A DNA stretch of 64,000 nt, from the NCBI RefSeq assembly GCF_014199195.1, contig NZ_JACIJE010000002.1, positions 1-64,000 on the forward strand. The letters run 5' to 3'. Positions 7,440-42,659 of this stretch are shown in pieces; the first letter of the stretch is position 1, and every line of letters starts with the position of its first letter. The notes beneath the pieces were generated by a model that was not told where the DNA came from, did no database searches, and worked only from the letters and a program-made list of their open reading frames with translations. Position numbers and translations under genes: made by a program. This DNA comes from Neoroseomonas alkaliterrae. GTDB taxonomy: Bacteria; Pseudomonadota; Alphaproteobacteria; Acetobacterales; Acetobacteraceae.

Positions 7440-7441
7440 GC

Positions 7442-8917: not shown

Positions 8918-9150
8918 CCGGTTCTCTCCCGCGAGAAGCTAGCGAGTGTCACGGAGGGACGGCGCGTTGCGCTCATCTCCGCACCGCGCAGCACGGCCAG
9001 CGCGCGGCCAAGCTCATCGAGGCTGCGATACTCCACCGTCCGCCCGTCGAAGCTCACGCGCGTCGTGCCGCCCGTGTAGGCGGCCGCCAGCGCCGCGGCG
9101 CGGCTCCCCTCCGGCTGCGCCAGCGCCCACGCGAGAACAGTCGGATCCAT
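8914..9150 (-). CDS. gpW-like phage head-tail joining protein
   Basis: 78 residues, about the size of lambda gpW. Pattern: an alanine-rich helix (Trp-Ala-Leu-Ala-Gln-Pro-Glu-Gly-Ser-Arg-Ala-Ala-Ala-Leu), a beta hairpin (Thr-Thr-Arg-Val-Ser-Phe-Asp-Gly-Arg-Thr-Val-Glu-Tyr-Arg) and a second helix (Leu-Asp-Glu-Leu-Gly-Arg-Ala-Leu). This is the alpha-beta-beta-alpha gpW fold, which binds under the portal. The start at 9150 abuts the previous gene's stop, and its end overlaps the portal start by four bases. It lies just upstream of the portal gene, as in lambda. Confidence 0.8.
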   Translation of the reverse strand: MDPTVLAWALAQPEGSRAAALAAAYTGGTTRVSFDGRTVEYRSLDELGRALAVLRGAEMSATRRPSVTLASFSRERTG

Positions 9151-15512: not shown

Positions 15513-16971
15513 CGGCCAGGGCCTCCGCACGCGCCGCGGCGATGGCGTCGTAATCCCGCCCGTCCTCCGCCAGCGTCACCGGCAGGTCCGGATGCAGCAG
15601 GCGCCAGCGGGCGATGGCCAGATCGACATAAGCCGGCGCGAGTTCGATAGCCCGCACCTGCCGGCCGATCCGCTGACCGGCAAGGAGGGTAGTGCCGGAG
15701 CCGGCGAAGGGCTCGAACACCGCCTCGCCCTCGTCCGTGTAGGCCCGCATCAGGAACTCCGGCAGCGCGACCGGGAACACCGCCGGGTGCTCGGTCTCGA
15801 TGCCGCGGCCCTTGTGGCGGGTGATCCGCAGCACGCTGTCCGGGATCCGGCTCTCCTGCACCGGCAGGCCGATGTGGGTGTAGGCCTTCACCTCGCCGTC
15901 GGCGGCACGCAGGCCGCTACCCTTGTTCGGGGTGCCGGCCCACTTGCAGGGCACGATCTTGTTGGGCTGGCGCGGCTGGCGATTGAGGTGGAACACCAAC
16001 TCGAAGGCCGGGGCGAGGCGGCCGTTCCAGTCACCGGGCAGGCCGGGGCCCTGGTCCCAGGCGTAGAGCCCGAACCGCCGCCAGCCCTGCGCTCGCATCC
16101 AGTCGAGCCAACCGGACCAGTAGGGCAGCCATTCCCCGTCGCGGTGGATCAGGCCGAGGTTCACCAGCACCTGGCCGTCAGCCTGAAGGGCCTCGCTCAT
16201 GGCGCCGAACACGCCCCGCATCAGGGCATCCCAGTCCGACACGCCACCGGTGGTGTAGTCGCGCTGGTTCCCGTAGGGCGGGCTGGTGAAGAGCAGCGCC
16301 GCGCGGTCGCCGGCCATGACCTGAGCTACCGAGGCAGCGTCGGTGGAGTCCCCACAGAGTAGACGGTGGTCGCCGAGCAGCCAGAGATCGCCCGGGCGAG
16401 TGACGGCCTGACGCGGCGGGTCCGGTTCGGCATCGGCGGGATCATCCGCCGGCGCCTCGTCCGTGTCCGTCGCGCCGGGCGCGCCACCGCCGCTGGCCTC
16501 CGGCTGATCTGCCTCCTCGGGCGCATCGCCATCGGTGACGGCCGCATCCGCCGCCGCGAGGATTGCGGTCAGCTCGTCCGCCGAGAAGCCGAGCATGGCC
16601 ACGTCGATCTCCGCCGCGGCCTGCACACCGGCCAGCGCCTCGCGCAGCAGCGCCTGGTCCCAGGTCGCGTTCTCGGCGATGCGGTTGTCAGCGAGCCGGA
16701 GCGCGTCCTTCTGCGCCGGCGAGAGGTGGCGCAGCACGATCACCGGCACCCGCTCGATGCCGAGCGCCACCGCCGCCTCGAGCCGGCCATGACCGGCGAT
16801 CAGCACGCCGGCCTCGTCCACCAGCAGCGGGTTGGTGAAGCCGAAGGCCAGCATGCTGGCCTTGATCTGCTCGAGCTGCGCGGCGCCGTGCACGCGGGCA
16901 TTGCCGGGGTGGGCGCGCAGCTCCGCCACCGGGCGCAGCAGGATCTTCGCCGCCATCCAGGGGAGCGTCAT
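15502..16971 (-). CDS. ParB-domain DNA methyltransferase (TSPPY type)
   Basis: 489 residues, same layout as its neighbour: ParB-like domain (residues 10-100, Ala-Gly-His-Gly-Arg at 59-63), a Pro/Asp/Glu-rich linker (about 145-190), then a methyltransferase with Thr-Ser-Pro-Pro-Tyr-Gly at 229-234 and Phe-Ala-Gly-Ser-Gly-Thr-Thr near residue 430. The Ser-Pro-Pro-Tyr form is characteristic of cytosine-N4 methylases, so it may modify a different base from the DPPY enzyme next to it; base specificity is inference. It is the first gene after the 365-base non-coding stretch carrying the GGTGCGAACC repeats, the nearest of which lies 22 bases before the start. Confidence 0.88.
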   Translation of the reverse strand: MTLPWMAAKILLRPVAELRAHPGNARVHGAAQLEQIKASMLAFGFTNPLLVDEAGVLIAGHGRLEAAVALGIERVPVIVLRHLSPAQKDALRLADNRIAENATWDQALLREALAGVQAAAEIDVAMLGFSADELTAILAAADAAVTDGDAPEEADQPEASGGGAPGATDTDEAPADDPADAEPDPPRQAVTRPGDLWLLGDHRLLCGDSTDAASVAQVMAGDRAALLFTSPPYGNQRDYTTGGVSDWDALMRGVFGAMSEALQADGQVLVNLGLIHRDGEWLPYWSGWLDWMRAQGWRRFGLYAWDQGPGLPGDWNGRLAPAFELVFHLNRQPRQPNKIVPCKWAGTPNKGSGLRAADGEVKAYTHIGLPVQESRIPDSVLRITRHKGRGIETEHPAVFPVALPEFLMRAYTDEGEAVFEPFAGSGTTLLAGQRIGRQVRAIELAPAYVDLAIARWRLLHPDLPVTLAEDGRDYDAIAAARAEALADAA

Positions 16972-17336
16972 CGGGCCATCCGGGATCAGGGTGGTGCGAA
17001 CCGTGCGCGCGGCCGGCGCGAGCCTCGCGCCGCCACGGTTCGCAGCTAAACGATTGAGATCAGGGCCGTGTGGTGCGAACCGCGAACCATGTTTTCGGCC
17101 TGGCGCTAGCGAAGTCGCGCGCTTCCGCTTCCCGCATACGCCAGGCCCAGGAAGGACCCTGCGGCTCGCGAGCCACTGTCTCGATCGAGCGACGCTGTGG
17201 CTGGTCGGCCGCTTCGCGCTCGCGCATCTTCAAGTTGGCCGCAGGATAGGACAGACGGATTCCAGGGCGCAACGCGACATTTCCGCGCAGGCGTTCCTTT
17301 GTTTTCGCTCCGAAGCCGGGTCACGGCGTGCGGCCG
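16972..17336. promoter_or_regulatory. 365-base gap with repeated GGTGCGAACC boxes
   Basis: No convincing gene. Two exact copies of the near-palindrome GGTGCGAACC lie at 16993-17002 and 17072-17081. The latter is followed at once by a half-copy GCGAACC (17082-17088), and an inverted GGTTCGC sits at 17037-17043. The same 10-mer recurs at 29743-29752 in the other prophage control region. A minus-strand open frame of 70 codons (17060-17272) crosses the gap and lacks homology-like features; I doubt it is a gene. The gap probably holds the promoter and operators of the methyltransferase pair. Confidence 0.5.
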
Positions 17337-28438: not shown

Positions 28439-29158
28439 TCAGTCGAACAGCGTCGGCGCCCGGCGCTCCGTGGTCAGGAAGTCCAGCTTGAGGAGGCGGA
28501 CCCGCGCCGCGTCCGGGGAGACCCGGAAGGCCTCGACCACCCGCCCGACCATCTCCGCCGCGAGCGGCGATTCGACGTGCACGGCGGCGTGGATGCCGCG
28601 GGGGACGCAGAGCTCCGCCACCAGGCGGCCGAGGACGGAGCGCGGCATCAGGATGGCGCCACTGACGTAGCCCGCCTGCCACTCCATCCAGTCCACCTCG
28701 CGGGCCTCCAGGATGGAGTCCCGCTTGCAGATCGCCTTCGCCTCCGGGTCGGCGCGGTCGAACAGGCCACCGCGGGAGAACCGCTCGGCCCAGAGGGCGC
28801 GATGGAACTGGGCGTGGCCGAGCTCGTGCGCCAGCGTCGTCCGCAGCCGGTTCTCGCGCCTCGGGTCCGAGGACAGGCGCTCGGACACCGCCACCGCCGG
28901 CAGCTCGTCCGGGAAGAACTCGGTCATGCCCTCGACGTCCTCGCCGTGGGCGGACAGGTCGGCGTAGAGGTCGAGGCTGGAAGTGTACCGCTCCACCAGC
29001 ACCGTGAGGTCATCGGTCGAGATCGGGTACCGCGCCTCGCCGTACCGGCCGCGGAGGAAGGTGCCGACGATCGCCTCGCACTCCCGGTCGAGCTCCTCCC
29101 GGCTGAAGTGCGGGCGCCGGCCGAATCGGCCGGATCTGTCGGGCACCCAAGCCACCAT
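28439..29158 (-). CDS. ImmA/IrrE family metallopeptidase
   Basis: 239 residues. The zinc site His-Glu-Leu-Gly-His lies near residue 112 within Thr-Leu-Ala-His-Glu-Leu-Gly-His-Ala-Gln-Phe-His. The downstream Glu of Trp-Met-Glu-Trp-Gln-Ala fits the family's third zinc ligand region (usually Glu-x-x-Ala-x-x-Phe/Tyr-Ala). ImmA-type peptidases cleave a paired XRE repressor on damage or signalling and so release the repressed operon. Its gene starts 11 bases after the XRE gene stop, the classic pairing. A C-terminal winged-helix-like part (about 190-239) may sense the signal. Confidence 0.88.
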   Translation of the reverse strand: MVAWVPDRSGRFGRRPHFSREELDRECEAIVGTFLRGRYGEARYPISTDDLTVLVERYTSSLDLYADLSAHGEDVEGMTEFFPDELPAVAVSERLSSDPRRENRLRTTLAHELGHAQFHRALWAERFSRGGLFDRADPEAKAICKRDSILEAREVDWMEWQAGYVSGAILMPRSVLGRLVAELCVPRGIHAAVHVESPLAAEMVGRVVEAFRVSPDAARVRLLKLDFLTTERRAPTLFD

Positions 29159-29169
29159 GCGCCACCCCC

Positions 29170-29496
29170 TCAGTTCGACACGCTCTTCCGGAAGTTCCGG
29201 AACGCCGCGGCGACCTTGTCAGGATCGCGGGCCTTCAGCCGCACCTCGTCGGGGATCTTGCCGGCCAGCACGAAGAGGTAGTTCTCGTCGACGCCCAGGG
29301 CCCTCGCGAACTGGCGGATCAGGTGGTCCGAGCTCGGGCTGCGCCGGTCGTGCTCGATGTCGTTCAGGTACTGGGGCGAGATCGGTCCGGAGCCGTCGTC
29401 CTTCAGCACGGACGCCGCCAGGTCCTTCTGGCTGATGCCCTTCTCCTTGCGGGCCGCCACGATGGCCTTGCCCAGCGTCGTCGCCCGCGACGTCAT
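29170..29496 (-). CDS. XRE-family repressor-like HTH protein
   Basis: 108 residues. HTH at about 8-70: Leu-Gly-Lys-Ala-Ile-Val-Ala-Ala-Arg-Lys-Glu-Lys-Gly-Ile-Ser-Gln-Lys-Asp-Leu-Ala, then Ile-Ser-Pro-Gln-Tyr-Leu-Asn-Asp-Ile-Glu, typical XRE/Cro. The C-terminal 35 residues are charged and helical and could carry the ImmA cleavage region. It is the first gene of the leftward operon and faces the rightward recombinase operon across a 257-base gap, so it probably controls both, acting as the prophage repressor. Confidence 0.88.
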   Translation of the reverse strand: MTSRATTLGKAIVAARKEKGISQKDLAASVLKDDGSGPISPQYLNDIEHDRRSPSSDHLIRQFARALGVDENYLFVLAGKIPDEVRLKARDPDKVAAAFRNFRKSVSN

Positions 29497-29753
29497 CGCG
29501 CGTCCATCCCGCGGCTTCCCATCCTACGGTGCTTCGCGGATTGACGTATCTTGGCTGGCGGCTCCGAGGTCAAGCAGGGATTAGGAGCCCGCCGGGAGGC
29601 GATGGCCGCGACTCGGGCTGCCGGCCCGGGAGCGAGGCGGGCGGCGGGTGCGAGGGAGGCTGCGCACGGCTGCCTTCTTCTTCGCTGTGGTTCGCTAAGA
29701 GATTGTTTTGGCTATCCAAATTGGCCGGTCAGGGTGATCTTGGGTGCGAACCG
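29497..29753. promoter_or_regulatory. divergent control region of XRE and recombinase operons
   Basis: No gene. It separates the leftward XRE operon from the rightward recombinase operon. Visible elements are GGTTCGC at 29689-29695; an inverted repeat TTTGG-ctat-CCAAA at 29707-29720; and GGTGCGAACC at 29743-29752, directly before ATG 29754. The 10-mer also occurs twice at 16.99-17.08 kb, so these are candidate operators for the XRE protein or another phage regulator. The last 70 bases are AT-richer than their surroundings, as expected for a promoter. Confidence 0.55.
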
Positions 29754-29974
29754 ATGATCCCGAGCCCCTCACCCCACTCCGCCGCCCTGCAGCACCTCCC
29801 GCCGCACCTCCGCGAGGTCTGCGCCCTCCTGGCCGCCGGCCTGCTGCGGCTGCGCAGCCGCGCCGCCGAGGAACTGGCGCGCGACGCCGCCGAGGCCCGG
29901 GACCGGGGAGAGGTTCGCCTACACTCCGCGCCCCGGCAGCGCCGTCATGCCAACCCGACTCGTCGGAGACAGGC

Positions 29975-29978
<4 letters not shown>
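29754..29978 (+). CDS. small protein preceding DUF2924
   Basis: 74 residues from ATG 29754. A leucine/alanine-rich helix (His-Leu-Pro-Pro-His-Leu-Arg-Glu-Val-Cys-Ala-Leu-Leu) is followed by Leu-Arg-Ser-Arg-Ala-Ala-Glu-Glu and a basic tail ending Arg-Arg-Arg-Gln-Ala. I recognise it as the small protein that usually precedes DUF2924 and a large serine recombinase in alphaproteobacterial phages. Its stop overlaps the DUF2924 ATG (ATGA). Function unknown; a recombination cofactor is plausible. The longer frame upstream runs through the operator region and is not used. Confidence 0.65.
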
Positions 29979-30483
<505 letters not shown>

Positions 30484-30487
<4 letters not shown>

Positions 30488-31833
30488 GGCGGAAGGCCAC
30501 CGCCGCGGCCCACGCCGGCACGCCGGCCACGGTGAAGAAGCTCCGCTGCGCCGTCTACACCCGGAAATCGACCGAGGAGGGGCTGGAGAAGGAGTTCAAC
30601 AGCCTCGACGCCCAGCGCGACGCCTGCGAGGCCTTCATCGCCAGCCAGCGCGCCGAGGGTTGGGTGTTGGTGCCGGACCACTACGACGATGGCGGCGTCT
30701 CTGGCGGCACCCTGGAGCGCCCCGCCCTGCAACGCTTGCTGCGCGACATCGAGGCCGGCCGGGTCGACGTGGTGGTGGTCTACAAGATCGACCGCCTGTC
30801 CCGTTCCCTCATGCACTTCGCCAAGCTGGTCGAGGTGTTCGACGCGCACAGCGTCACCTTCGTCTCGGTGACGCAGAGCTTCAACACCACCACCTCCATG
30901 GGCCGGCTGACGCTCAACATCCTGCTCAGTTTCGCCCAGTTCGAACGCGAGGTGATCGGCGAGCGGGTGCGCGACAAGATCGCCGCCTCGAAGGCCCGCG
31001 GCATGTGGATGGGCGGCTCGGTCCCGCTCGGCTACGAGGTGCGCGACCGCAAGCTGGCGGTGAACGAGGACGAGGCGGCGCGGGCGCGACGGGCGTTCGA
31101 GCTCTTCGCCGAGACCGGCTCCGGGGTGGAGGCCGTCCGGCGGCTGCGCGCGGAGGGCGTGCTGACCAAGACCGGCCGGCCCTTCGACAAGGGGGCGCTC
31201 TACCGGCTGCTGAACAACCGGACCTTCCTCGGCGAGGTGACCCACAAGGGGAAGGTCCATCCCGGCGAGCACCGGGCCATCGTGCCCAGGGAGCTGTGGG
31301 ACCGGGTCCACGTCATCCTGCAGGAGAGCCCGCGGGTCCGCGCCAACCGGAACCGCCGGCAGACCCCGGCCCTGCTCAGGGGCCTCATCTTCGGGCCGGA
31401 CGGCCGGGCCATGTCGCCCACCCACACCCGGCGGCGGGGGCGGCTCTACCGCTACTACGTCAGCCAGGCCGTGCTGAAGGGCGAGACCAGCGACTGCCCG
31501 GTCCGGCGCCTGCCGGCGGCCGAGATCGAGGCCGCGGTGGTGGACCAGGTCCGGGCGCTGCTGCGCCAGCCCGAGGTGGTGGTCGGCACTTGGCGGGCGG
31601 CGCGGGCCGAGGCGCTGGACCTGACCGAGGCCGAGACCCTGGCCGTCCTGGAGCGGCTGGACCCGCTGTGGGACGAGCTGTTCCCGGCCGAGCAGGCGCG
31701 CATCGTCCGGCTGCTGGTGGAGCGGGTCGACATCAGCGGCGCCGGTGCTGACGTCCGCCTTCGGCTAGAGGGGTTGGCCAGTCTAGTGCGCGACCTCGGC
31801 GGCATCGGGGCCGACACGCGGAGGGCGGCGTGA
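30484..31833 (+). CDS. large serine recombinase (probable integrase)
   Basis: 449 residues. Resolvase domain about 19-165 with the catalytic Ser at 29 (Val-Tyr-Thr-Arg-Lys-Ser-Thr) and Lys-Ile-Asp-Arg-Leu-Ser-Arg-Ser near 100. A recombinase domain follows (about 185-290; Gly-Tyr-Glu-Val-Arg, Leu-Asn-Asn-Arg-Thr-Phe-Leu-Gly-Glu). The zinc-ribbon region (about 300-345) is present in outline but has lost the usual cysteines; only one Cys (Asp-Cys-Pro) is left. It inserts or excises the element at attachment sites. ATG overlaps the DUF2924 stop. As the only integrase seen, it probably belongs to the prophage. Confidence 0.92.
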
Positions 31834-32225
31834 CGGCGGCCACCAGCATCACGGTCCGCGTGCCACTGGTGATCCGCCGGCGCGGTGGGCGGAAGCTGGT
31901 GGTCACGCCGGACGGCGGCGCGCCTGGCGCCGCGCCGGCGCGACTGCGGGCCGACCCGGCCCTGGTCAAGGCACTGGCCCGGGCGTTCCGGTACCGGAGG
32001 CTGCTGGACCAGGGGCGCTACGGCTCGATCAGCGAGATGGCCACCGCCGAGCGAATCGACCGCGGCTACCTCGGCCGCCTCCTGCAGATCACGCTGCTCG
32101 CGCCGGACATCGTGGAGGCAATCCTGGACGGGCGGCAGCCGGACGGGCTGGGGCTGCCTCAACTCCTGAGGGTGCTACCCGTGCAATGGGAAGCGCAGCG
32201 ACAGCTTGCCCGGGGAGCTGGATAG
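31830..32225 (+). CDS. small HTH protein following the recombinase
   Basis: 131 residues. N-terminal beta strands (Ile-Thr-Val-Arg-Val-Pro-Leu-Val-Ile-Arg-Arg) come before Leu-Val-Lys-Ala-Leu-Ala-Arg-Ala-Phe-Arg-Tyr. A helix-turn-helix follows: Gly-Ser-Ile-Ser-Glu-Met-Ala-Thr-Ala-Glu-Arg-Ile-Asp-Arg-Gly-Tyr-Leu-Gly-Arg-Leu. It matches the small phage-related protein that usually follows the DUF2924-recombinase pair and overlaps the recombinase stop by four bases. It may act as directionality factor or regulator; not shown. Confidence 0.75.
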   Translation: MTAATSITVRVPLVIRRRGGRKLVVTPDGGAPGAAPARLRADPALVKALARAFRYRRLLDQGRYGSISEMATAERIDRGYLGRLLQITLLAPDIVEAILDGRQPDGLGLPQLLRVLPVQWEAQRQLARGAG

Positions 32226-32348
32226 GGGACACCGGCAGGGAGCGGCGCTACCCGCCCGCAACCCGAGGGGTATAGCCTCGACCGATCTGCAATCTTCCGG
32301 TAAGCGTGCTTGCTGGCACGGAGTCCGCTCTACGGATCATGAGCAGGC
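32226..32348 (+). promoter_or_regulatory. leader of the defence operon with inverted repeat
   Basis: A 123-base gap between the recombinase set and the ATPase gene. It contains an inverted repeat CGAGG-N7-CCTCG at 32264-32280, whose spacer holds the AT-rich GTATA. No clear -35/-10 pair could be assigned. Probably the operon's own promoter region; the repeat could be an operator. Confidence 0.35.
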
Positions 32349-35321
32349 ATGTTCCCGGACGGTGCCAAAGCATTCGGGCGGGGTCTATCGGGCATGGGTG
32401 TCAAGGCTGGCAGTAAGCCCCGTGACGATGTTCGTCATGGAGAGCTTGATGACGCGATCTTCGCCGCGAGCTTCGGAAAGCTGATCCGGAACGAAGGTCC
32501 AGACATCTACAAGAAGCCCGGTCCCTTCTTTCAGAACACCCATCCCACAGCGGCCCTGTCAAAGCTTTGCCGTGACGTCTTCGGCCGCCTTGCATCCCCG
32601 ACCGAAGGGGGGGCTGTCCTCCGTCTCTCCACCGGATTCGGCGGCGGCAAAACCCATGCGCTGATGACCCTCTGGCATCTCGCGCAGAACATCGGCGACC
32701 CCACGATGGGGACCGACCTGCTGCCGCCCGCCGGGCGCCCGAAGAGCGTCCGGGTTGTCGGCATCGACGCTGAGGGAGCGGGCTATCCGATCTTCGCCCG
32801 GCATGGCGACCAGGAGGCCCGCAGCCTGGCCGCGGAACTGGCTTTCCAATTCGGCGGCGCAAGTGCCTTGAATGCCTTCGGCCCCGCCAACTCTGCCGCT
32901 GCGTCGCCCGATGCCGCAACAGTCGAGGCCATGCTTCCGAACGAACCCGTCCTGATCCTGCTGGACGAACTCGTTCTCTACATGGCCAAGCTGACGGCAC
33001 AGGAGGTTGGCAACCTCATCGGTTTCCTCCGCACGCTGATGACGGCGGTCGTCACGCGCAAGCAGGCCGTCCTCGTCATCACAGATCCGAAGGACCAGCC
33101 GGCCGACGCCGAGAATGCGGCGCGGCTCGAGCACCTGGCTCGAATGATCGAGCAACAGACCGGGCGGCAGGCGACCGTCATCGAGCCGATCGGTGATGAA
33201 ACGGCCCAGGTCATCATCCGGCGCCTGTTCGATTCCGTAGACCCGGCCGCGGCTGCCAAGGCCTCGGCCGATTACCACGCGCTGTACCAGCGGGTTGCCG
33301 AGGACCACCCCAACTTGGTCCCAGAGGAAGCCCGATCCCCGAAGTATGCGGAGCGGATCCGCATCTGCTACCCGCTCCATCCTCGGCTGCTAAAGACGGC
33401 CGAGGAGCGGCTGCGCGTGCTGCCGGACTACAACCTGTCCCGCGGCACCCTGCGCCTCTTTGCTCGCGTGATCCGCGGCGTTTGGGAAGACCCGACCCGG
33501 GATCCGGACCTAATCACCGCCGGGGAGATCGACTGGTCCAGCCGACCCATTCAGACCGACCTGCTCGAACGCCTCGACCGTGAGAAGTTCCGTGCGGCTG
33601 TCAGCGCCGACGTCGTGGGCCACGCGCGAGAGCTCGATCAGGCCGATTGGGGGGCGCACCGCCGCGTGGCCTCGGCACTCCTGCTGGAGAGCCTGCCGCT
33701 CGAGGCGAACAGCGGGCTGGCGCCGGCCGACCTGACCCTCGCGGTGCTCCGCCCGGACGAGGCCGGCACTGAGCCGGCGGAGGCGCTTGACCGGCTGGCG
33801 GGCGCCTGTTGGCACCTCTATCCCATGAGCGGCTCGGCCAATGCCTGGCAGTTCCGCTATGAGCCGAACATCCTGAAGCAGATCGAGGAGCGGATGGGCC
33901 AGGTCCAGCGCCCCGACGCGCTGGATCGCCTCAAGACGGAAGTTCAGAAGTCGTTCCAGGGCGCCTTCGCCCGCCTTCTGCCCTGGCCGCCCAACGCCAA
34001 AGCCGTCCCCGAGCGGCCGGAACTGCAGCTCGCCCTCTGCGAGAGCGAGGACATCGCGAAGTCAGTCGTGACCTACAGCGACGACACCCCGGGCGCGCAG
34101 ATCATCCGTACCTACCGTAACGCCATGCTCGCCGTCGCCCCGGATGCCTCTGGGCTGGAAAAGGCCATCCAACGGATCCAGCGCCTGAAGGCCGCCGAGG
34201 ACATCGAGGATGAGACGCCGAACTCCGAGGCCGGCAAGCTCGCCCGCGAGCAGCTCAAGAAGCAGAAACCCGAGCTCATCAAGGCCGCCCGGCTCGAGGC
34301 GGCGCGCGCCTTCAATCGCCTGGTGCTGGCCGATGGCGGCGTGCTCACGATCGATGAGCGCTTTATCGCGCCGCCCGACACTTCGCCCCTCCAGCTTCCC
34401 TCCGGCCAGGACGCGGTGCGGGCCTTCGTCGAGGACCGCAAGCTGATCTACGGCCCTCAGGACAGCCTGCACCCTGACTACTTCATCGAGCGCGTGTTCA
34501 GCGGCGCCGTGCCGGTGGCCGACACACCTGACGCCCGCACCACCGCGGGCCTCCAGAAGCGCTTCCTCGGGGCGCAGGGCCTCAAGCTGGTCAGCGACCC
34601 CAGCGTCATCCGTGCCTCCATTCTCCGCGCGGTGACCGAAGGCCGCCTGGTGGTGCGCCTTGAGGACGGAACCGCCTTCGACAAGGACGGCGCGGTCGCG
34701 ACCAGCAACGGCATCCGCCAGCGAGACCCGGGACGGAAGCTCAACACCCTGCCGATGGACGAGGCGACGCTGGTGGCCGAAGCCGGCAGCACGGCCGCGC
34801 AGGACTGGCTCAAGACGACCAAGGGTATGGGGGAGAAGCCGATGACGCCCGGCAGCCTCCCCCTGCCTCCGCCGCCACCCAAGGGCTCCGGCCCCATGAC
34901 CGCGACCGATATTGCCGTGGCCTGCCAGTTGGCGGACAAGCGACGGCTGCTCTCTCTGCGCATCACCTGCCTCTCCGCGGCCGATGCACAGAAGATCCTT
35001 GGCGCGGCATCCCCCCTGGGCGCATCCAGTGTGCACATCGAGGCGGAACTGACCGGCGACCTGAAGGACGGCGGCAAGCTGTCCTTCAGCGTGGCGGAGG
35101 CGAAGGTCTCGGCCGCCATCAAGCCCCTAACCATGGCGCAGACGCTGGGCAATGCCCTGGTGCCCGGCAGCAGCATCCGGGTCTCGGTCGTCCTCGGCTT
35201 CGGCCCGGACGGCAAGGCCGATCTCGGCGCATTGCTGCGGACCCTGGAGATGCAGCTGCCCGACACCTCCAGCATCGAGGCCCGTTTCGCGCCGCTCTCC
35301 GACACTGTCTCGGCGGGCTGA
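32349..35321 (+). CDS. DUF499 family ATPase of the defence operon
   Basis: 990 residues. Walker A Gly-Phe-Gly-Gly-Gly-Lys-Thr-His at 96-103 and Walker B Val-Leu-Ile-Leu-Leu-Asp-Glu-Leu at 201-208; the Asp-Ile-Tyr ... Phe-Phe-x-x-Thr-His-Pro-Thr segment before the P-loop is typical of DUF499. Tyr-Pro-Leu-His-Pro follows near 338. The C-terminal third (about 820-990) is beta-rich after a Pro-rich linker. DUF499 proteins are large AAA-type ATPases found with DUF1156 methylases and helicases in phage-defence loci. It starts the four-gene operon, with six bases to the next gene. Met1 is used; Met16 (32394) is possible. Confidence 0.88.
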   Translation: MFPDGAKAFGRGLSGMGVKAGSKPRDDVRHGELDDAIFAASFGKLIRNEGPDIYKKPGPFFQNTHPTAALSKLCRDVFGRLASPTEGGAVLRLSTGFGGGKTHALMTLWHLAQNIGDPTMGTDLLPPAGRPKSVRVVGIDAEGAGYPIFARHGDQEARSLAAELAFQFGGASALNAFGPANSAAASPDAATVEAMLPNEPVLILLDELVLYMAKLTAQEVGNLIGFLRTLMTAVVTRKQAVLVITDPKDQPADAENAARLEHLARMIEQQTGRQATVIEPIGDETAQVIIRRLFDSVDPAAAAKASADYHALYQRVAEDHPNLVPEEARSPKYAERIRICYPLHPRLLKTAEERLRVLPDYNLSRGTLRLFARVIRGVWEDPTRDPDLITAGEIDWSSRPIQTDLLERLDREKFRAAVSADVVGHARELDQADWGAHRRVASALLLESLPLEANSGLAPADLTLAVLRPDEAGTEPAEALDRLAGACWHLYPMSGSANAWQFRYEPNILKQIEERMGQVQRPDALDRLKTEVQKSFQGAFARLLPWPPNAKAVPERPELQLALCESEDIAKSVVTYSDDTPGAQIIRTYRNAMLAVAPDASGLEKAIQRIQRLKAAEDIEDETPNSEAGKLAREQLKKQKPELIKAARLEAARAFNRLVLADGGVLTIDERFIAPPDTSPLQLPSGQDAVRAFVEDRKLIYGPQDSLHPDYFIERVFSGAVPVADTPDARTTAGLQKRFLGAQGLKLVSDPSVIRASILRAVTEGRLVVRLEDGTAFDKDGAVATSNGIRQRDPGRKLNTLPMDEATLVAEAGSTAAQDWLKTTKGMGEKPMTPGSLPLPPPPPKGSGPMTATDIAVACQLADKRRLLSLRITCLSAADAQKILGAASPLGASSVHIEAELTGDLKDGGKLSFSVAEAKVSAAIKPLTMAQTLGNALVPGSSIRVSVVLGFGPDGKADLGALLRTLEMQLPDTSSIEARFAPLSDTVSAG

Positions 35322-35327
35322 ATTGCC

Positions 35328-35771
35328 ATGGCAAGCGCCAAGGCGCAGGCGACCCGGGCCGCCCCCTTCGCCCTGCGCGTGGTGCAGCGGAGCGAGGGGC
35401 TGGCCGCAATCATCTACCGCCGCCGCGTGAACGACCGCATGGAGGAGCGCTTCGACCGCGTCGCGGCGCTCTCTCCCCTAGCCCTAACGGCGGCGAGCGG
35501 CTTGCTGCGCACGGCGGTGCGTGCCGGCGGCGGCGCCGCGAAGCTGGAGCCCGGGCCCTTCCTGCCGCTGGACGCCGATTGGGGCGCGCGTGTCGCAGGT
35601 TTCGCCATAGTGGCGCGCGGGCTGCGCGACCCACGGCGTCTGTCGAAGGCGGCCGAGCATTTCCGCACGGCCGATGCCGCCGAGGCAGCGGCCTGGTTCG
35701 GGCGCATGCAGGATGGGCGGGGTACCCGCTGGGTGCGCGCCCTGAGGATCATCACGGAGGCGGTGGCGTAG
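35328..35771 (+). CDS. unknown 147-aa component of the defence operon
   Basis: 147 residues. Basic N-terminus, then a strand pair (Ala-Leu-Arg-Val-Val-Gln-Arg; Ala-Ala-Ile-Ile-Tyr-Arg-Arg) and Glu-Glu-Arg-Phe-Asp-Arg-Val-Ala-Ala-Leu-Ser. A helical C-terminal half follows with Ala-Trp-Phe-Gly-Arg-Met and Trp-Val-Arg-Ala-Leu-Arg-Ile. I do not recognise the family. Its place between the ATPase (six bases) and methylase (four bases) is fixed and in the same operon, so it is an integral component, perhaps a specificity or adaptor subunit as DUF3780 is thought to be in related loci. Confidence 0.75.
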   Translation: MASAKAQATRAAPFALRVVQRSEGLAAIIYRRRVNDRMEERFDRVAALSPLALTAASGLLRTAVRAGGGAAKLEPGPFLPLDADWGARVAGFAIVARGLRDPRRLSKAAEHFRTADAAEAAAWFGRMQDGRGTRWVRALRIITEAVA

Positions 35772-35775
35772 GACG

Positions 35776-38763
35776 ATGCCGGAGGGGATGGGGGCGGCGC
35801 AGCCGCGGCTGCTGATCGAGGAATGGCTGCCCGCGGCAGCGATCGGCGTGGAGTGCATGCGAGAGCGCGGGTCCGCCAGCGCGTTGGCGCCGACGACGTT
35901 CCTGCATGTGTGGTGGGCGCGTCGCCCGCTGGCCGCGAGCCGCGCGGCTGTGCTGGCCAGCGTACTGCCGGCGGATTTCCCACGCGAGACTTTCGAGCGG
36001 CTGCTGGGCTTCGGCCGGTCCGGCCAGGAGCTCGTCGCCATCCGTGAGCTGATGAACACCGGCGTGAAGGTGGAGGGCGGCTTTGGCGCCCCACGCGCCT
36101 TCAAGGCCGGGCTGCGCGAGAAGGATGTCGAGGTCGCGCACGCAGCCGCAGCGCGTCTCTGGGGTCATCTGCCGACCGTGATGGACCCCATGGCCGGCGG
36201 CGGCTCCATCCCGCTGGAGAGCGCGCGGCTCGGCTTCCCGACGCTCGCCAATGAATACAACCCCGTCGCCTGCAGCGTGTTGGAAGCGACCCTCGACTAT
36301 TCCTTTCGCTTCGGGCCACGGCTCGCGGAGCGCGCGCGGCACTGGGGACGCGTCTGGGAGAAGCGGGTGGCCGAGCGACTCGGGCGGTTGTTCCCGAAGG
36401 AGACAGGCGCCACCGTCCACGCCTACATCTTCGCCCGCACCATCCCCTGCCCGACGACGAAGCACCCGACGCCGCTGGTGCCGGACTGGCACCTGCTGAA
36501 GCCGAAGGGCGGCGTGGCGGTGGTGGCGGTGCCGGTGGTGGACAAGGCGGCCGGCACCTGGACGACCGAGATCCGCAAGGTAGGCGTAGGCCCGGGCGCG
36601 GTGGCCGCCCCGCCGCCGCGCACCTACAGCAAGGGCAAGGGCATCAGCCTGTTCACCGGCGAGAGCATCCCGGCCGATTGGATCAAGGCACAGGCGCAAC
36701 AGGGCAGGATGGGCAGCGCGCTTTACGCCGTGGCGCTGAAGACACCGCAAGGCTTGCAATTCCGCCCACCCCTGCCAGGCGATCTTGAGGCGCTGGAGGC
36801 CGCCGAGGCACAGCTTGCGCAATGGCGCGCCGACTGGGAGGCGCGGAACCTGATCCCGACGGAGGAATATCCCGAGGTCTCGAGCGACCCGCGCCCGCGC
36901 GTGTATGGCATGAAGCGCTGGGCCGACATGTTCAGCCCGCGCCAGTTGCTCGGCTTTGGCGTGCTGATGGAGGAGCTGCACGCACTGCGACCAACCATCC
37001 TCGCCGAGGAGGGCGAGGAGATGGGCGAGGCGGTGGTCCATCTCCTTGCATTCGCGCTAGACAAGCTCGCGAACTGGAACTGCATCCTTTCCTCCTGGAA
37101 TGTCCGGGCGCAGACAGTTCGGTCGCTGTTCGATCGTCACGATTTCTCGTTCAAGGTGACTTTCTCGGAGTTGGCACCGGTTGTGGCCGGCGGAGGGTTG
37201 GCCTGGGCGCTGGACAATGCCTGTTCGGCCTTCGAGGACATCGCAAAGCTGCCTCATGCGGAGGCGCGTCAGCACATGGAGCTTTCGCAAGGCTCCGCCG
37301 CTTCGCTCATCCACCTCGCCGACCACTCAGTTGATGCGATCGTCGTGGACCCGCCATACTCAGATAACGTCCAGTATAGCGAACTTGCCAACTTCTTCTA
37401 TGTTTGGCTGAAGCGCAGCCAAGGCCACCGCCGGCCCGAATGGTTCTCCTCACTCCTCAGCGAGAACACCGAGGAGGCGGTGAAGAACTCCGCCCGCTTC
37501 CGCGCCCGTTTCAAGACGGCGAAAGAGGCTGCCGCCGCCGCGCAGGCTCACTACCAGGCGCTGATGACCCAGGTCTTCACCGAGGCCCGCCGCGTGCTGC
37601 GCACTGAAGGCGTGCTGACGGTCATGTTCACCCACAAGAAGCAGGAGGCGTGGGAGGCGCTCTTCGCCTCGCTGATCGAGGCCGGCTTCACCATCTCCGC
37701 CACCTGGCCGGTGATGACCGAAGGGGCGCACAGCCTGCACCAGGCAAAGAAGAACGCGGCACAGTCCACCGTCATCCTCGTCGCCCGGGCGCGGGCGCCC
37801 AATATCGGGACGGGCTACTTCGATGCCAAGATGCAGGCGGACATCAAGGCGGCGGCGGAGCGCACCGCCGAGCGCCTCTCGGCCGAGGGTCTGAACCCCG
37901 TGGATCAGCTCGTCGGCAGCTTCGGTCCCGCCATGGCGGTGTTCAGCGCCTACGACCGGGTGCGGACCGACACGGGCGAGCCGGTAAGCGTGGGCGCGGC
38001 CATCGACATCGCCGCCGATGCAGTCGCCGGCTGGCGCATCCGTCAGCTCGCCAGGGGCGGGCTGCAGGACGTGGAGGCCGAGGCGCAGTTCGCTCTGCTG
38101 TGCTGGGCCACGCTGCGCGCCGCGGAATTCCGCTTCAACGAAGCGAAGCTGCTCGGCCACGCCGTCGGCATGGATGTCTCCGCCTTGGAACAGGCGGGGC
38201 TTATCACGGTGAAGGCGGACAAGGTGAACATCCTCTCCGCCGCCCAGCGCCGGCGCGAGGCCCCGCTGCGCGAGGACGAAGCACAGCAGCTTCTGTTCGG
38301 CTGGACACCCGGGGAGAGCAGGCGCCTAAAGAAGGCCGACGCATTGAAGATCCATCCCCGCGACCCCGCCTTCCGGACACACTTGGACAAGGCGCAGGCC
38401 CTGGCGCTGGTCTATGCCGATGCGGGCGGAGGAGCGGCTGGTATCGGCGCCGCGAAGTCCTTCGCCCTCAAGCACGGCATCAAGGCCGGCGATCCGACCG
38501 TGCGCCTGATCGAAGCCCTGCTCAATGCGGCCCCGCCGGCGGTGCGGCGGGAGAAGACAGCGGTCGCCGCCCAGTTCCCCGAGTTCCGCGCCTGGCACGC
38601 CATGCTGCAACCCCTCTTCGGGATCACGCCGCCGGATTGGACAGAGAAAGGCCCCGACCAACGCGTGCTCGAGTTCCTCTCCCGCCCTGCCGCCACTACT
38701 GAGGAGGATGAGGCGGAGATCGAGGAGGAGGATGAGGCGGAGGACGAAGAGGAGGAGGAATGA
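35776..38763 (+). CDS. DUF1156 DNA methyltransferase of the defence operon
   Basis: 995 residues. N-terminal DUF1156 motif (Leu-Ile-Glu-Glu-Trp-Leu-Pro about 13-19, then Val-Trp-Trp-Ala-Arg-Arg-Pro at 45-51). SAM-binding Asp-Pro-Met-Ala-Gly-Gly-Gly-Ser at 137-144 and catalytic Asp-Pro-Pro-Tyr at 525-528 show an adenine methylase with the SAM motif first and a very long insert that probably recognises DNA. The last 20 residues are almost all Glu/Asp, an unusual acidic tail encoded next to the helicase start (ATGA overlap). It should mark host DNA as self, with the ATPase and helicase acting on unmodified DNA. GC content dips around the DPPY region. Confidence 0.9.
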   Translation: MPEGMGAAQPRLLIEEWLPAAAIGVECMRERGSASALAPTTFLHVWWARRPLAASRAAVLASVLPADFPRETFERLLGFGRSGQELVAIRELMNTGVKVEGGFGAPRAFKAGLREKDVEVAHAAAARLWGHLPTVMDPMAGGGSIPLESARLGFPTLANEYNPVACSVLEATLDYSFRFGPRLAERARHWGRVWEKRVAERLGRLFPKETGATVHAYIFARTIPCPTTKHPTPLVPDWHLLKPKGGVAVVAVPVVDKAAGTWTTEIRKVGVGPGAVAAPPPRTYSKGKGISLFTGESIPADWIKAQAQQGRMGSALYAVALKTPQGLQFRPPLPGDLEALEAAEAQLAQWRADWEARNLIPTEEYPEVSSDPRPRVYGMKRWADMFSPRQLLGFGVLMEELHALRPTILAEEGEEMGEAVVHLLAFALDKLANWNCILSSWNVRAQTVRSLFDRHDFSFKVTFSELAPVVAGGGLAWALDNACSAFEDIAKLPHAEARQHMELSQGSAASLIHLADHSVDAIVVDPPYSDNVQYSELANFFYVWLKRSQGHRRPEWFSSLLSENTEEAVKNSARFRARFKTAKEAAAAAQAHYQALMTQVFTEARRVLRTEGVLTVMFTHKKQEAWEALFASLIEAGFTISATWPVMTEGAHSLHQAKKNAAQSTVILVARARAPNIGTGYFDAKMQADIKAAAERTAERLSAEGLNPVDQLVGSFGPAMAVFSAYDRVRTDTGEPVSVGAAIDIAADAVAGWRIRQLARGGLQDVEAEAQFALLCWATLRAAEFRFNEAKLLGHAVGMDVSALEQAGLITVKADKVNILSAAQRRREAPLREDEAQQLLFGWTPGESRRLKKADALKIHPRDPAFRTHLDKAQALALVYADAGGGAAGIGAAKSFALKHGIKAGDPTVRLIEALLNAAPPAVRREKTAVAAQFPEFRAWHAMLQPLFGITPPDWTEKGPDQRVLEFLSRPAATTEEDEAEIEEEDEAEDEEEEE

Positions 38764-41700
38764 GCGCCTCCCTTCGCGACGTCACCTGGCCTCGTTTCCT
38801 GCGGGCGCCGGACGGACAGTTGGTGGCCCGGCTTTATGAGCCGGCCCTACGCCGGGCGGTGCGCTACGACCGCTGCTGCGCCTACTTCTCCTCCTCCGTC
38901 CTCTCCGCCGCGGCCTCCGGTTTCGGCGCCTTCATCCAGCGAGTGCTGGACGGCGAGGTGGTGAACAAGCCGGCGATCCGCCTGCTGGTGAATGAGGAGC
39001 TTTCGGAAGCGGACGTAGCGGCGTTGCTGGATGCCGGGCAGGAGGCGCCGCTGGTCCAGGCGCTCCTGGCACAGCTCGGCAGCCCCGAGACGGCGCTGCA
39101 AAAGCGACGGCTGGAGATGCTGGCCTGGCTGGCCCGCGAAGGCTGGCTCGAGGTTCGGGTCGGCATCATGCGCCAAGCCGACGGGATCCTGCATGCCAAG
39201 TTCGGCCTGTTCGTTGACGCGCAGAAGGACGCGGTCGTCTTCGCCGGCAGCGGCAATGAAAGCGCCAATGGTCTCCGTGGCAACTACGAGAAGCTCGAGA
39301 TCAGCTGGAGTTGGGGCGACGCCGAACGCCACGTGCACTTCCGTGATGAATTCGAGGCGCTGTGGTCAGGCAATGATCCGGCCGTCGCCAGCGTCCCCCT
39401 GCCGCAAGCGGTGCGCGACGCGCTGATCAAGCTTGCGCCCGATGTACCGCCGGTCGCGGAGGCGGAGGACAATCTGCGACGCCAGCGTGCGGCGATGCTT
39501 TGGAGCTACGCCCTGGCGGCGCCCTATATGCCGGAGGGCGGGGCGGCGACCTGCGACGCCATGGCGCCGGTGACGCTGTGGCCGCACCAGCGCCGCGTGG
39601 TGGCGGAGGCCGCCTCCGCTTGGCCGGAGGGCCGCCTCCTCTGCGATGAGGTGGGCATGGGCAAGACGGTGGAGGCGATCCTGATCCTCCGCCGCCTGCT
39701 GGCGGGGCGCGGCGTGAAGCGAGCCCTGCTGCTGCCGCCCGCCAATCTTCTGCCGCAGTGGCAGGGGGAGCTGCGTGAGAAGGGCGGACTGCGTGTGCCG
39801 CGCCTCGAAGGCCCGCGCACGCTGGTCTGGCCCGACGGCACCAAACAGACCGTGGCGGGCCTGGCCGAGGCCCTGGAGCAGGATCTGCTGCTGCTCAGCC
39901 GCGAGACGGCGCGCACCGAGGGCAATCTCCCGATCCTACTCGCCGCCCGCCCCTGGGATCTCGTGCTGCTTGACGAAGGCCATGCCGCGCGGCGCGCTAG
40001 CCAGATCGAGGGCGAGTTCAACACCCCGACTCTGCTCCTCGGGCTACTGCGGCGGCTCCAAGCGACCGGCCAAGCGCGGAGCTTCATGATCCTGTCGGCC
40101 ACGCCCATGCAGACCCACCCCTGGGAGCCCTGGGACCTGCTCCAGGTGCTGGGCGAGGGCGGCCTGTGGCTTTCGGGGTTCCACGTCGTTTCTCGGTTCT
40201 ACGAGGCGTTGGCGGCCTTGGAGCGCGGTCAGCTCTCGCGGCGAGAGGCCTTGGCACTCGCACGGATCCTCGCCGCGACACCCCAGCGCCCGAGCCCACC
40301 CGCTGAGCTCTCGCTGCCGCCGGTGGAGGATGCCGAGGCATTCGCGCAGGCGCTTCGGTTCTTGCCGGCCGAAGCGCGCACACGGACGGTCGCGTGGCTG
40401 CGGAGCTGCTCGCCACTGGCGCGACGCATGCACCGGAACACGCGGCGTACGCTGCGACGCTATTACGAGATGGGCTTGCTGGAACGCCCGCCGCCCCAGC
40501 GTGACGTCCGCGAGGATCCCTTTGACTTTGAGACGCAGGAGGAGCGGGAGGTCTACGAGGCCGTCACGCGCTACATCGACCGGCGCTTCGACGAGCTGGA
40601 GGGGCAGAAGCCCGGCAAGGGCTTCGTGATGACCATCTACCGGCGCCGGGCCGCCAGCTCTCCAGTGGCCCTGCGCAAGAGCCTTGAACGGCGCGCGATG
40701 GGCCTGAAGGCCGTCATCGCGCAGCGCGCCTACGACGATACGGTTCTCGACCTCGAAGACGCGGAGGAACTCGAGGATCTGCTGAACGTGAAGCTGACAT
40801 CGGCGCTGCCCGAGACTCCGCAAGAAGCGGCGGCAGAGCTGGCCGAAGTCGAGGACCTGCTCTCGCGCATCGCCAGTCTCGGTGGGTTGGACACGAAGCG
40901 CGACCGATTGGTCGCCTGGACGAAGAAGCTGACGGCGGACGGCCGGGGCGTCCTGATCTTCACCGGATACACGGACACGATGGAGTATCTGCGGGATGCT
41001 CTGGCCAGCGCCTTCGGGTCCGCCGTCGCGTCCTACTCCGGCGAAGGTGGTGCCGTTCGCGCAGGCCAGGCATGGATTCCGGCGTCGAAGGAGGCCGTGA
41101 CGGCGGCCCTCCGCGCCGGGACGATCAAGGTCCTGGTCTGCACGGATGCCGCGAGCGAAGGTCTTAACCTGCAGGCCGCCGGCGCGCTGGTGAACTTCGA
41201 CCTGCCCTGGAATCCGTCGAAGGTCGAGCAGCGCATCGGGCGCGTGGATCGGATTGGGCAGGAGCTGCCCGTCCTTCCCATCGTGAACCTATACCTGCAG
41301 GACAGTGTGGACGAACGGGTGTACCGCGCGCTGGCCCGCCGCTGCGGCCTATTCGAGACGTTTGTCGGCCCCATGCAGCCGGTGCTGTCGCAGGCGATCC
41401 GCATGCTCATCGGCAAGGAGCATGTGGACGAGGAAGCCCTGGCGAAGGCGGCGGAAGCGATCAGGAAGAACCCGGCTGTCATGCAGGCCTTCCCGGAGGA
41501 CGAGCCAGCGGCCCTCCAGGCCGAGGAAGGATTGTTCCGCCCCGAGCAAGTGGAAACGCTCCTTTCGGCCTTGGAAGGGACAGGCATCCGCGTGAAGGCC
41601 GAGAGCAATACGGTGCATCTCATCGGCACGGGGCCCCTCCGTATCGTGACGCACCCATCCGGTGTTGTGGCGCATCCGGAGGCGAGCTGCGTCGATGGAC

Positions 41701-42317
41701 TTGATGCCCGCCAATGGCGGCTCCTGCGGGAGCTGCAACAGCCCGGCGAGCGCCTGCCCCTGGTCCTCGCTTCTGCCGAGGAGGGGGCCTTTCGAGCCGT
41801 GGTCTGTGGTTGGGTTTCCGCCGAGGGGCTCCATGAGGTCCGGTCATTCGCGGACCTGCAGGCTCTCATGGTTGATTGGGACGGCCAGGAACCGCCCAAT
41901 GGAGCCTGGAAGACCGCGCGCCTGCAGTTGGCGGCCAAGGCGCGGCAGCACGTCTCGGAGCTGGCTCAACGATGCGCCGCCGCTGCGGCGGTGAGCCGAG
42001 TCGCGCAGGCGGAGGCGGCGCGGCTTCGACTGATCGAAGAGCTGGGCCGAACCCTCATCTGCTTCGAGCCAGATACGAACGACCTCAACGGCAAGTTTCA
42101 CCGCCTTGCCACCGAGCGGACCGCCACGGCAGAGCGACTCCAGCATGTGTATGGCCGCCTCGGCGGCTACCCAGAGTGGGACGAGTTCCAGCTCGCTGAC
42201 TTGCGCGAATTCCGCACGGGTCTAACGGGAAACCAGGTCAAGACCCGCCTCACTGGGCGCGAATTGGACGCAGCGATGGCCGACCCTCGGTGGGCGTTGG
42301 CGCTACCCACGAGCTGA
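38760..42317 (+). CDS. PLD-SNF2 helicase of the defence operon
   Basis: 1185 residues. N-terminal phospholipase D-like module: His-Ala-Lys at 145-147, Gly-Ser-Gly-Asn-Glu-Ser at 163-168 and a Glu at 178, the HxK-N-E set of PLD nucleases (a single copy, so a dimer is needed for activity). SNF2-type helicase follows: Asp-Glu-Val-Gly-Met-Gly-Lys-Thr at 296-303, Asp-Glu-Gly-His at 406-409, Ser-Ala-Thr-Pro-Met near 446, and Gln-Arg-Ile-Gly-Arg-Val-Asp-Arg-Ile-Gly-Gln near 823-833. The C-terminal 250 residues are unassigned. It is the probable effector: DNA translocation plus cleavage. Last gene of the operon. Confidence 0.9.
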   Translation: MSASLRDVTWPRFLRAPDGQLVARLYEPALRRAVRYDRCCAYFSSSVLSAAASGFGAFIQRVLDGEVVNKPAIRLLVNEELSEADVAALLDAGQEAPLVQALLAQLGSPETALQKRRLEMLAWLAREGWLEVRVGIMRQADGILHAKFGLFVDAQKDAVVFAGSGNESANGLRGNYEKLEISWSWGDAERHVHFRDEFEALWSGNDPAVASVPLPQAVRDALIKLAPDVPPVAEAEDNLRRQRAAMLWSYALAAPYMPEGGAATCDAMAPVTLWPHQRRVVAEAASAWPEGRLLCDEVGMGKTVEAILILRRLLAGRGVKRALLLPPANLLPQWQGELREKGGLRVPRLEGPRTLVWPDGTKQTVAGLAEALEQDLLLLSRETARTEGNLPILLAARPWDLVLLDEGHAARRASQIEGEFNTPTLLLGLLRRLQATGQARSFMILSATPMQTHPWEPWDLLQVLGEGGLWLSGFHVVSRFYEALAALERGQLSRREALALARILAATPQRPSPPAELSLPPVEDAEAFAQALRFLPAEARTRTVAWLRSCSPLARRMHRNTRRTLRRYYEMGLLERPPPQRDVREDPFDFETQEEREVYEAVTRYIDRRFDELEGQKPGKGFVMTIYRRRAASSPVALRKSLERRAMGLKAVIAQRAYDDTVLDLEDAEELEDLLNVKLTSALPETPQEAAAELAEVEDLLSRIASLGGLDTKRDRLVAWTKKLTADGRGVLIFTGYTDTMEYLRDALASAFGSAVASYSGEGGAVRAGQAWIPASKEAVTAALRAGTIKVLVCTDAASEGLNLQAAGALVNFDLPWNPSKVEQRIGRVDRIGQELPVLPIVNLYLQDSVDERVYRALARRCGLFETFVGPMQPVLSQAIRMLIGKEHVDEEALAKAAEAIRKNPAVMQAFPEDEPAALQAEEGLFRPEQVETLLSALEGTGIRVKAESNTVHLIGTGPLRIVTHPSGVVAHPEASCVDGLDARQWRLLRELQQPGERLPLVLASAEEGAFRAVVCGWVSAEGLHEVRSFADLQALMVDWDGQEPPNGAWKTARLQLAAKARQHVSELAQRCAAAAAVSRVAQAEAARLRLIEELGRTLICFEPDTNDLNGKFHRLATERTATAERLQHVYGRLGGYPEWDEFQLADLREFRTGLTGNQVKTRLTGRELDAAMADPRWALALPTS

Positions 42318-42485
42318 CTCGGTGGCGGGGTTTGTTCCAAGGGCCACTCGCGATGCGAACTTGCCACACGCCCGTGGCTTCAAATTCAGAATAATATCAG
42401 TCTCTTAAAGCTTGTAGACTAGATCGCCGAAGTCCCAAGGTGCGGAGAGAACCACCGTTGCCGAGAGAGAATTCCAGCCCGCCTT

Positions 42486-42507
42486 GACCTTGGCGCCCCC
42501 CAAGGTC
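42486..42507. terminator. 8-bp perfect hairpin between the defence operon and tRNA-Arg
   Basis: GACCTTGG and CCAAGGTC form a perfect 8-bp stem around a six-base C-rich loop, 169 bases after the helicase stop and 77 bases beyond the tRNA 3' end. There is no T-run on either side. The surrounding stretch (about 42370-42450) is notably AT-rich. It may end transcription from either side or mark the island junction. Confidence 0.4.
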
Positions 42508-42583
42508 GCCGCGCCAACCCTGGCCCAACCTGCGGTTCCAGGCGCCACCCGCCCAACCGGAGAGCGAGTTTGCAGGAAGAAAT

Positions 42584-42659
42584 GGTGTCCCCGAGAGGAT
42601 TCGAACCTCCGGCCCCAGGATTAGGAATCCTGTGCTCTATCCTGCTGAGCTACGGGGAC
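42584..42659 (-). tRNA. tRNA-Arg (anticodon CCT)
   Basis: 76-base cloverleaf including encoded CCA on the minus strand. Acceptor stem GTCCCCG/CGGGGAC; D stem GCTC/GAGC; anticodon stem CAGGA/TCCTG around the loop TTCCTAA, giving anticodon CCT (reads AGG); variable loop GGGCC; T arm GGAGG-TTCGAAT-CCTCT with one G-T pair. It stands at the junction between the defence operon and core genes. tRNA genes are common insertion points for islands, but no second copy of its 3' end was found in this window. Confidence 0.95.

Follow-up and report, generated by a model that had tools for sequence, protein, structure and literature searches.

A four-gene operon of Neoroseomonas alkaliterrae, very probably a phage-defence system, likely belongs to an unnamed sister branch of the Type-2 BREX-Related systems

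Background

BREX-Related (BR) systems are the closest described relatives of the operon analyzed here, a cluster of four genes for an ATPase, a small protein, a DNA methylase and a helicase in Neoroseomonas alkaliterrae (contig NZ_JACIJE010000002.1, positions 1 to 64,000; this whole 64,000-nt stretch is called the window). Type-2 BR systems, described in the 2026 BR survey (PMC12839542; NCBIfam NF042962, NF042963, NF042964 and DUF3780 antiphage protein), share with it the gene order DUF499, small protein, DUF1156 methylase and HKD-SNF2 helicase, the possible presence of accessory genes within the locus and, in a subset, an ASCH-fused small subunit. In the survey, a standalone DUF3780 protein is given for 98% of the published Type-2 set; DUF3780 has a four-stranded antiparallel sheet with five flanking helices and no definitive homologue, is in some proteins fused to ASCH/PUA or RAMA, and has a reader role that is proposed only (PMC12839542). 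Hma, or Type-1 BR, systems (PMC8565338, PMC12839542) have the ATPase and methylase families and an SNF2 helicase in common with the operon, and are described as three-gene systems with TUDOR, usually a C-terminal PD-(D/E)XK nuclease, and no HKD. An inactive restriction endonuclease plus an alpha+beta domain is likewise described there for BR helicases (PMC12839542).

Judging from sequence comparison, the N. alkaliterrae operon very probably encodes a phage-defence system that marks the DNA of its own cell and cuts DNA without the mark. It is likely to be a restriction-modification (RM)-like system sister to Type-2 BR, in a widespread, unnamed branch distinguished by its small protein. The gene set, gene order, motif conservation, evidence on subunit homology and mobility context reported below were established directly.

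Results and discussion

Gene and domain content

The four genes are intact open reading frames (ORFs) on the forward strand, spanning 32349–42317 and spaced by 6 bp, 4 bp and then a 4-bp overlap (Table 1); in this the ORF list agrees with the original prediction, which had been made from the sequence alone. In Pfam scans, the ATPase matches PF04465 (DUF499; 71.9 bits, cut-off 23), the methylase matches PF06634 (DUF1156; 55.9 bits, cut-off 24), with UPF0020 in its core (32.5 bits, cut-off 22.3) and DPPY at residues 525–528, and the helicase matches PLDc_2 (28.2 bits, cut-off 27), SNF2-rel (41.3, cut-off 24.9) and Helicase_C (61.5, cut-off 23.5). The 147-aa small protein, earlier called unassigned, does have a family: it matches PF24728 (DUF7680; 25.1 bits, cut-off 24; E 2.2e-5), an assignment backed by its conserved position in 75 of 80 related loci. 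Since the DUF499 match starts at residue 16 in the window vs residue 1 or 2 in many relatives, the true start of the ATPase may be ATG 32394.

Among PADLOC models, HmaC was the best match of the ATPase, with DUF499 next, and HmaB that of the methylase; for the helicase, PLD_Helicase came first (2.3e-64) and HmaA only seventh (2.9e-46). The NCBIfam antiphage equivalogs score well under their cut-offs (153/1200, 189/1000 and 325/1100), as does the DrmD-like similarity in the SNF2 helicase (215.8 bits vs 610). Pfam gave no TUDOR match in the helicase, whose N-terminus is occupied by the HKD domain. The C-terminus of this protein had been described as uncharacterized, and family profile scans indeed matched nothing there, PD-(D/E)XK nuclease included; the region is kept in the relatives of the window and is shorter in another subclade. 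Also borne out was the lack of BREX and DISARM components, with no PglZ match across the whole genome and no DUF1998/MZB match among the four operon proteins (Pfam). The single MZB/DUF1998 match of the genome lies on another contig (G000:C21:11175-11474, G000 being this genome), within a 1752-aa open frame, and this contig may hold a second defence locus.

Recurrence of the four genes and of their motifs

Relatives were sought in 99 genomes including that of N. alkaliterrae, with a methylase match threshold of E 1e-30; 13 genomes, the own one included, gave 14 matches. Fifteen regions were extended, namely 12 of these matches (all but the window and L018; L numbers denote surveyed loci) and 3 regions found via DUF7680. 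An HKD domain is present in 7 of the 15 (L019–L022 and L025–L027), and all 7 carry DUF7680, but only L019–L022 are independent for this linkage because L025–L027 were selected via DUF7680. The other eight (L023, L024 and L028–L033), named Type-1-like from gene content alone, have DUF499, methylase and SNF2 genes without HKD or DUF7680. The methylase and helicase genes of L025 (303–7342) are broken into several ORFs, this locus being either decayed or misassembled.

A methylase-seeded scan of genome contigs yielded 470 confirmed stretches, of which the best 80 were kept. As each of the seven seed methylases belonged to a DUF7680 locus, the linkage was tested within that clade and not over BR systems in general. 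Searching with an iterated profile of the family located DUF7680 in 75 of these 80 loci nearest by methylase; in the other five (L059, L068, L073, L094 and L096) less than 1.6 kb precedes the methylase match. DUF499 accompanies DUF7680 in 67 of the 75 loci and a PLD domain in 64, with all four genes, whole or partial, in 59 (L035 with a 433-aa DUF499 frame). In the 16 incomplete loci the place of the missing gene is at or past the sequence end, except in L056 and L058: the 8 DUF499-less loci have at most 1005 bases ahead of the DUF7680 ORF, and in 9 of the 11 PLD-less loci the sequence stops no more than 119 bases from the methylase ORF, L056 and L058 extending about 1.5 kb with no helicase. 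Since the gene order is retained in 58 of the 59 four-gene loci, the arrangement is not due to chance, and the neighbourhood conservation that had been set beforehand as a test of the prediction was found. The exception in order, L104 (a Promethearchaeum-assigned contig), has two copies of DUF7680 at 15844–17073.

The 75 DUF7680 loci are spread over 19 named phyla, three of them archaeal, with 7 loci having no phylum assignment; many are metagenome-assembled genomes, so single assignments may be wrong. When genomes were drawn evenly over the phylum, PF24728 was found in 4 of 398 (the own genome included) and PF12635 (DUF3780) in 1 of 398.

Catalytic motifs, counted over the window and the DUF7680-bearing loci, are near-invariant. 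The Walker A (GxGGGKT) Lys of DUF499 is present in 69/69 aligned rows (4 of 73 gapped) and the Walker B (hhhhDE) Asp-Glu in 72/73 (one gap); the methylase DPPY is unchanged in 81/81; the HKD His and Lys are each kept in 67/68 PLD rows; and, in the SNF2 part, D, E and H of motif II (DEXH) are conserved in 63/63 aligned rows (5 of 68 gapped) and QR of motif VI in 61/61. Broken motifs in most homologues, named in advance as an outcome that would speak against the prediction, were thus not seen. The domain matches, conserved co-occurrence and intact motifs support the view that these genes form a defence-like helicase, methylase and ATPase operon. A CPxC motif lies in the target-recognition insert of the methylase (residues 225–231, 36448–36468); at the position of its second Cys, 61 of 81 rows, including the window, have Thr and 16 have Cys.

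Methylase phylogeny

A methylase tree of 95 rows was built by a quick search with SH-aLRT support only and rooted on the Type-1-like rows. It omits three near-copies (L022, L043 and L036, which shares its contig with L019), any locus lacking a methylase frame longer than 850 aa, and the DUF3780 loci L115 and L121. The 8 Type-1-like rows form one group (support 99), in which, according to a program warning, two long branches meet, and the 8 DUF3780-type rows another (support 100, branch length 2.0). The remaining clade of 79 rows (support 99) comprises all 72 DUF7680 rows, 5 rows without visible DUF7680, and the plasmid rows L127 and L128 (the latter on a long branch, for which the program also warned), both of which bear DUF7680; these plasmids hold all four genes. 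The window falls in a 17-row subclade (support 100; members with 46–82% identity) together with Roseomonas mucosa, Humitalea, Rhodoplanes and representatives of several further phyla, a mixture pointing to wide horizontal transfer.

Some R. mucosa copies look decayed: L035 has a shortened DUF499 frame (241–1542), the plasmid L116 has a truncated DUF499 frame adjoining an IS6 element (7134–9126), and L117 (16546–23543) has a shortened DUF1156 gene, with DUF499 and DUF7680 not in view.

Similarity between DUF7680 and DUF3780

HMMER profiles do not link the two small-subunit families: at E 1e-3 the DUF3780 profile matched all 10 loci of its own type but not one of those with DUF7680. With hhalign, they are co-linear along about 140 columns. 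Using ten DUF3780 sequences, the local score was 26.9 and the global score 24.5; using 31 sequences, these were 31.4 and 27.0; and alignments A3 and A5 gave 31.7 (E 2.6e-4, calculated for a single comparison). Restricted to core columns, the real scores of 23.7 and 20.6 exceed the maxima from 200 column shuffles (22.1, over 30 columns, and 13.0) and those of the reversed alignment (16.3 and 4.2). In the comparison with ten DUF3780 sequences, 55 partner-protein windows scored no higher than 16.9 and 10.7. HH probabilities were modest, 6–43% in seven runs, with 83% in one global run in which query and template were swapped.

An AlphaFold2 model of DUF7680 built from 69 sequences (mean pLDDT 92.2, pTM 0.87) has strands at 14–21, 24–34, 40–48 and 79–81 and helices at 2–11, 50–55, 57–66, 83–96, 102–114, 117–127 and 132–142, i.e. 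four strands and five helices if 50–66 is taken as one helix and the less confident N-terminal helix is excluded. No PDB fold stood out for this model. N-terminal extensions of at least 95 aa were noted in 18 ORFs, 15 of them ASCH-like by eye (one contig-cut) and 3 looking like read-through in another frame; ASCH was found in all three extended proteins that were scanned. Because the profile alignment beats the nulls, the predicted fold resembles the description of DUF3780, and ASCH fusions are present, we regard it as likely that DUF7680 and DUF3780 are remote homologues. It is plausible that they share a role in modification reading or coupling.

Relation to described systems

The window shows the DUF499 ATPase, the DUF1156 methylase and the HKD N-terminal to SNF2 of Type-2 BR. 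It differs in that DUF7680 occupies the slot of DUF3780, which is at most its remote homologue and was not found by Pfam in the window; in that none of its proteins reaches the NCBIfam antiphage equivalog cut-offs; in its separate methylase clade; and in that most whole-frame helicases of the present loci have 1046–1330 aa, compared with about 900–940 aa for annotated helicases of DUF3780 loci. It could be argued that the 2026 survey already includes this operon, as nothing more than a divergent Type-2 BR system whose DUF7680 was placed under DUF3780 or which fell in the DUF3780-less 2%. The identical gene order and HKD-SNF2 architecture fit this, and so would small subunits that are, as is probable, remote homologues, but Pfam assigns DUF7680 and not DUF3780, the eight DUF3780-type methylases form a separate supported group on their long branch, and DUF7680 is not named in the covered part of the literature on DUF499, DUF1156 and DUF3780, supplements excluded; we find this account unlikely. 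The Hma-type label of the original prediction fares worse. PADLOC ranks HmaB first for the methylase and HmaC first for the ATPase, as would be expected of an Hma system that gained one gene; however, PLD_Helicase outranks HmaA, the helicase has an N-terminal HKD, the fourth gene, DUF7680, is present in 75 of 80 loci but in 0 of 8 Type-1-like loci, and the methylase tree, in setting the Type-1-like rows apart, largely refutes the idea, which we consider highly improbable. BREX, including Type 3, shares a BrxC-like ATPase, an N6 methylase and an SNF2 helicase with the operon, but the own genome has no PglZ match; DISARM shares the DrmD-like SNF2 similarity, but here PLD is fused to the helicase and DUF1998 is missing from the four proteins.

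A Type IV-like, modification-dependent system, in which DUF7680 senses modified bases of phage DNA and the methylase serves some other purpose, also has to be considered. The ASCH fusions would suit it, and detection of modified phage bases is named as an option for DUF3780 (PMC12839542), but a conserved intact cognate methylase (DPPY in 81/81) is more naturally explained by self-protection, making this option improbable. Returning to the RM-like system sister to Type-2 BR, 34 viral-collection loci retrieved via methylase alignment are mixed in content. DUF7680 is present in 10, all four genes in 6 (L129, L130 and L132–L135; the L130 helicase leaves the contig), and L159–L162 have a methylase fragment next to DUF7680. 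The four-gene viral-collection copies speak for the proposed system, as do those on plasmids L127 and L128 and the restriction cargo found at the tRNA site of relatives (see below). Four others weigh against the proposed system: L131 has the methylase and HKD helicase, with DUF499 and DUF7680 not found, and L136–L138 have the methylase with no further core gene found. These four are possibly phage-borne self-protection methylases.

In such an RM-like system, whose every activity we infer, along with the motif it modifies and the function of its reader, the DUF1156 methylase would mark adenines within a host motif, and the DUF499 ATPase may assemble a scanning complex on DNA, like the supposed action of BrxC. 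DUF7680, as the counterpart of DUF3780, would act as a small reader or adaptor, either signalling whether DNA is modified or linking the ATPase and methylase with the effector. The SNF2 motor would travel on unmarked DNA and the HKD domain would cut it, probably as a dimer since one HKD motif is seen. A broader proposal, put forward tentatively, is that DUF7680 and DUF3780 might constitute one superfamily of licensing subunits that reads DNA methylation and gates the HKD-SNF2 nuclease, the DUF7680 branch being a fourth, unnamed BR subtype across bacteria and archaea whose open operon takes in a second defence system in its entirety, Septu for example.

DUF7680 provides DUF3780 with a probable homologue for which a confident structure model is at hand, and the reader hypothesis becomes testable in two lineages. 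The family could also serve defence-finding tools as a marker; the plasmid records L116 and L127 label genes of this branch 'hypothetical protein' and 'helicase-related protein'.

Cargo within the operon

The operon of the window is compact, yet gaps of more than 300 bp are present in 32 of the 59 four-gene loci, between DUF7680 and methylase genes in 25 and between methylase and helicase genes in 15. In a chosen sample, the scanned inserts encode MBL hydrolase, DUF932, GmrSD, NYN, DUF3800, HD, OLD/TOPRIM, DEAD and UvrD proteins, and some had no family match. The inserts agree with known behaviour, since accessory nucleases lying inside BREX and BR loci have been described before (PMC12839542). 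In L021 (7940–13948), a PtuA/PtuB (Septu) pair lies between DUF7680 and methylase and DUF932 between methylase and helicase; the inserts of L022 (6272–12223) are similar in size. L078 (7724–9433 and 13109–15046) has a GajB-like UvrD helicase between the methylase and helicase genes, and Argonaute-type models match the insert that flanks its methylase on the opposite side.

Mobility context

The operon lies between a recombinase module and a tRNA-Arg gene (Table 1). Similarity of the DNA to relatives begins at the tRNA or no more than about 60 bases away, and the block neighbouring the tRNA is conserved across the genus. Of the 15 best-matching relatives, 13 were read at this site (G402 was excluded for its short flank and L188 is cut at a contig end). 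The module precedes the tRNA in four (L184, L185, L186 and L190), each with different cargo: MmeI-type, DEAD and GmrSD; HsdR and AAA; C5 methylase and NOV_C; and HsdM and HsdR. Among the nine others, the two inspected for cargo (L178 and L183) have no module. Comparison of these flanks suggests that the tRNA-Arg(CCT) site (29744–42659 in the window) is likely a defence hotspot. A search for an att repeat found none.

The recombinase was matched in 42 of the 99 genomes, with five matches in the own genome, and its adjacency alone is weak evidence because many of these genomes have more than one copy. The module is directly upstream of DUF499 in L036 and L039 and, in L129, lies about 3.8 kb upstream. 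It also occurs close to BR loci of either kind, in L020, L021, L022 (small gene only), L031 and L033.

Table 1. Positions in the window of the operon genes, their parts and the flanking mobility features
Feature	Coordinates	Strand	Length or details
DUF499 AAA+ ATPase, HmaC/BrxC-like	32349..35321	+	990 aa
DUF7680 small subunit	35328..35771	+	147 aa
DUF1156 N6-adenine DNA methyltransferase (DPPY), predicted	35776..38763	+	995 aa
HKD(PLD)-SNF2 helicase, predicted effector	38760..42317	+	1185 aa
HKD nuclease domain, helicase N-terminus	38766..39473	+	residues 3-238; H145, K147, N166, E167
SNF2 translocase core of helicase	39474..41426	+	residues 239-889
Helicase C-terminal region	41352..42314	+	321 aa, starts 30 residues past motif VI
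Serine recombinase, mobile module upstream of operon	30394..31833	+	
phrog_14161, small protein associated with the recombinase, gene 2 of module	31830..32225	+	
tRNA-Arg (CCT), 3' end toward operon	42583..42659	-	

A gene at about 29744–30487 presumably resembles DUF2924. Upstream of the recombinase, an HTH regulator and an ImmA/IrrE-type peptidase (M78) are encoded on the minus strand at 28439–29496.
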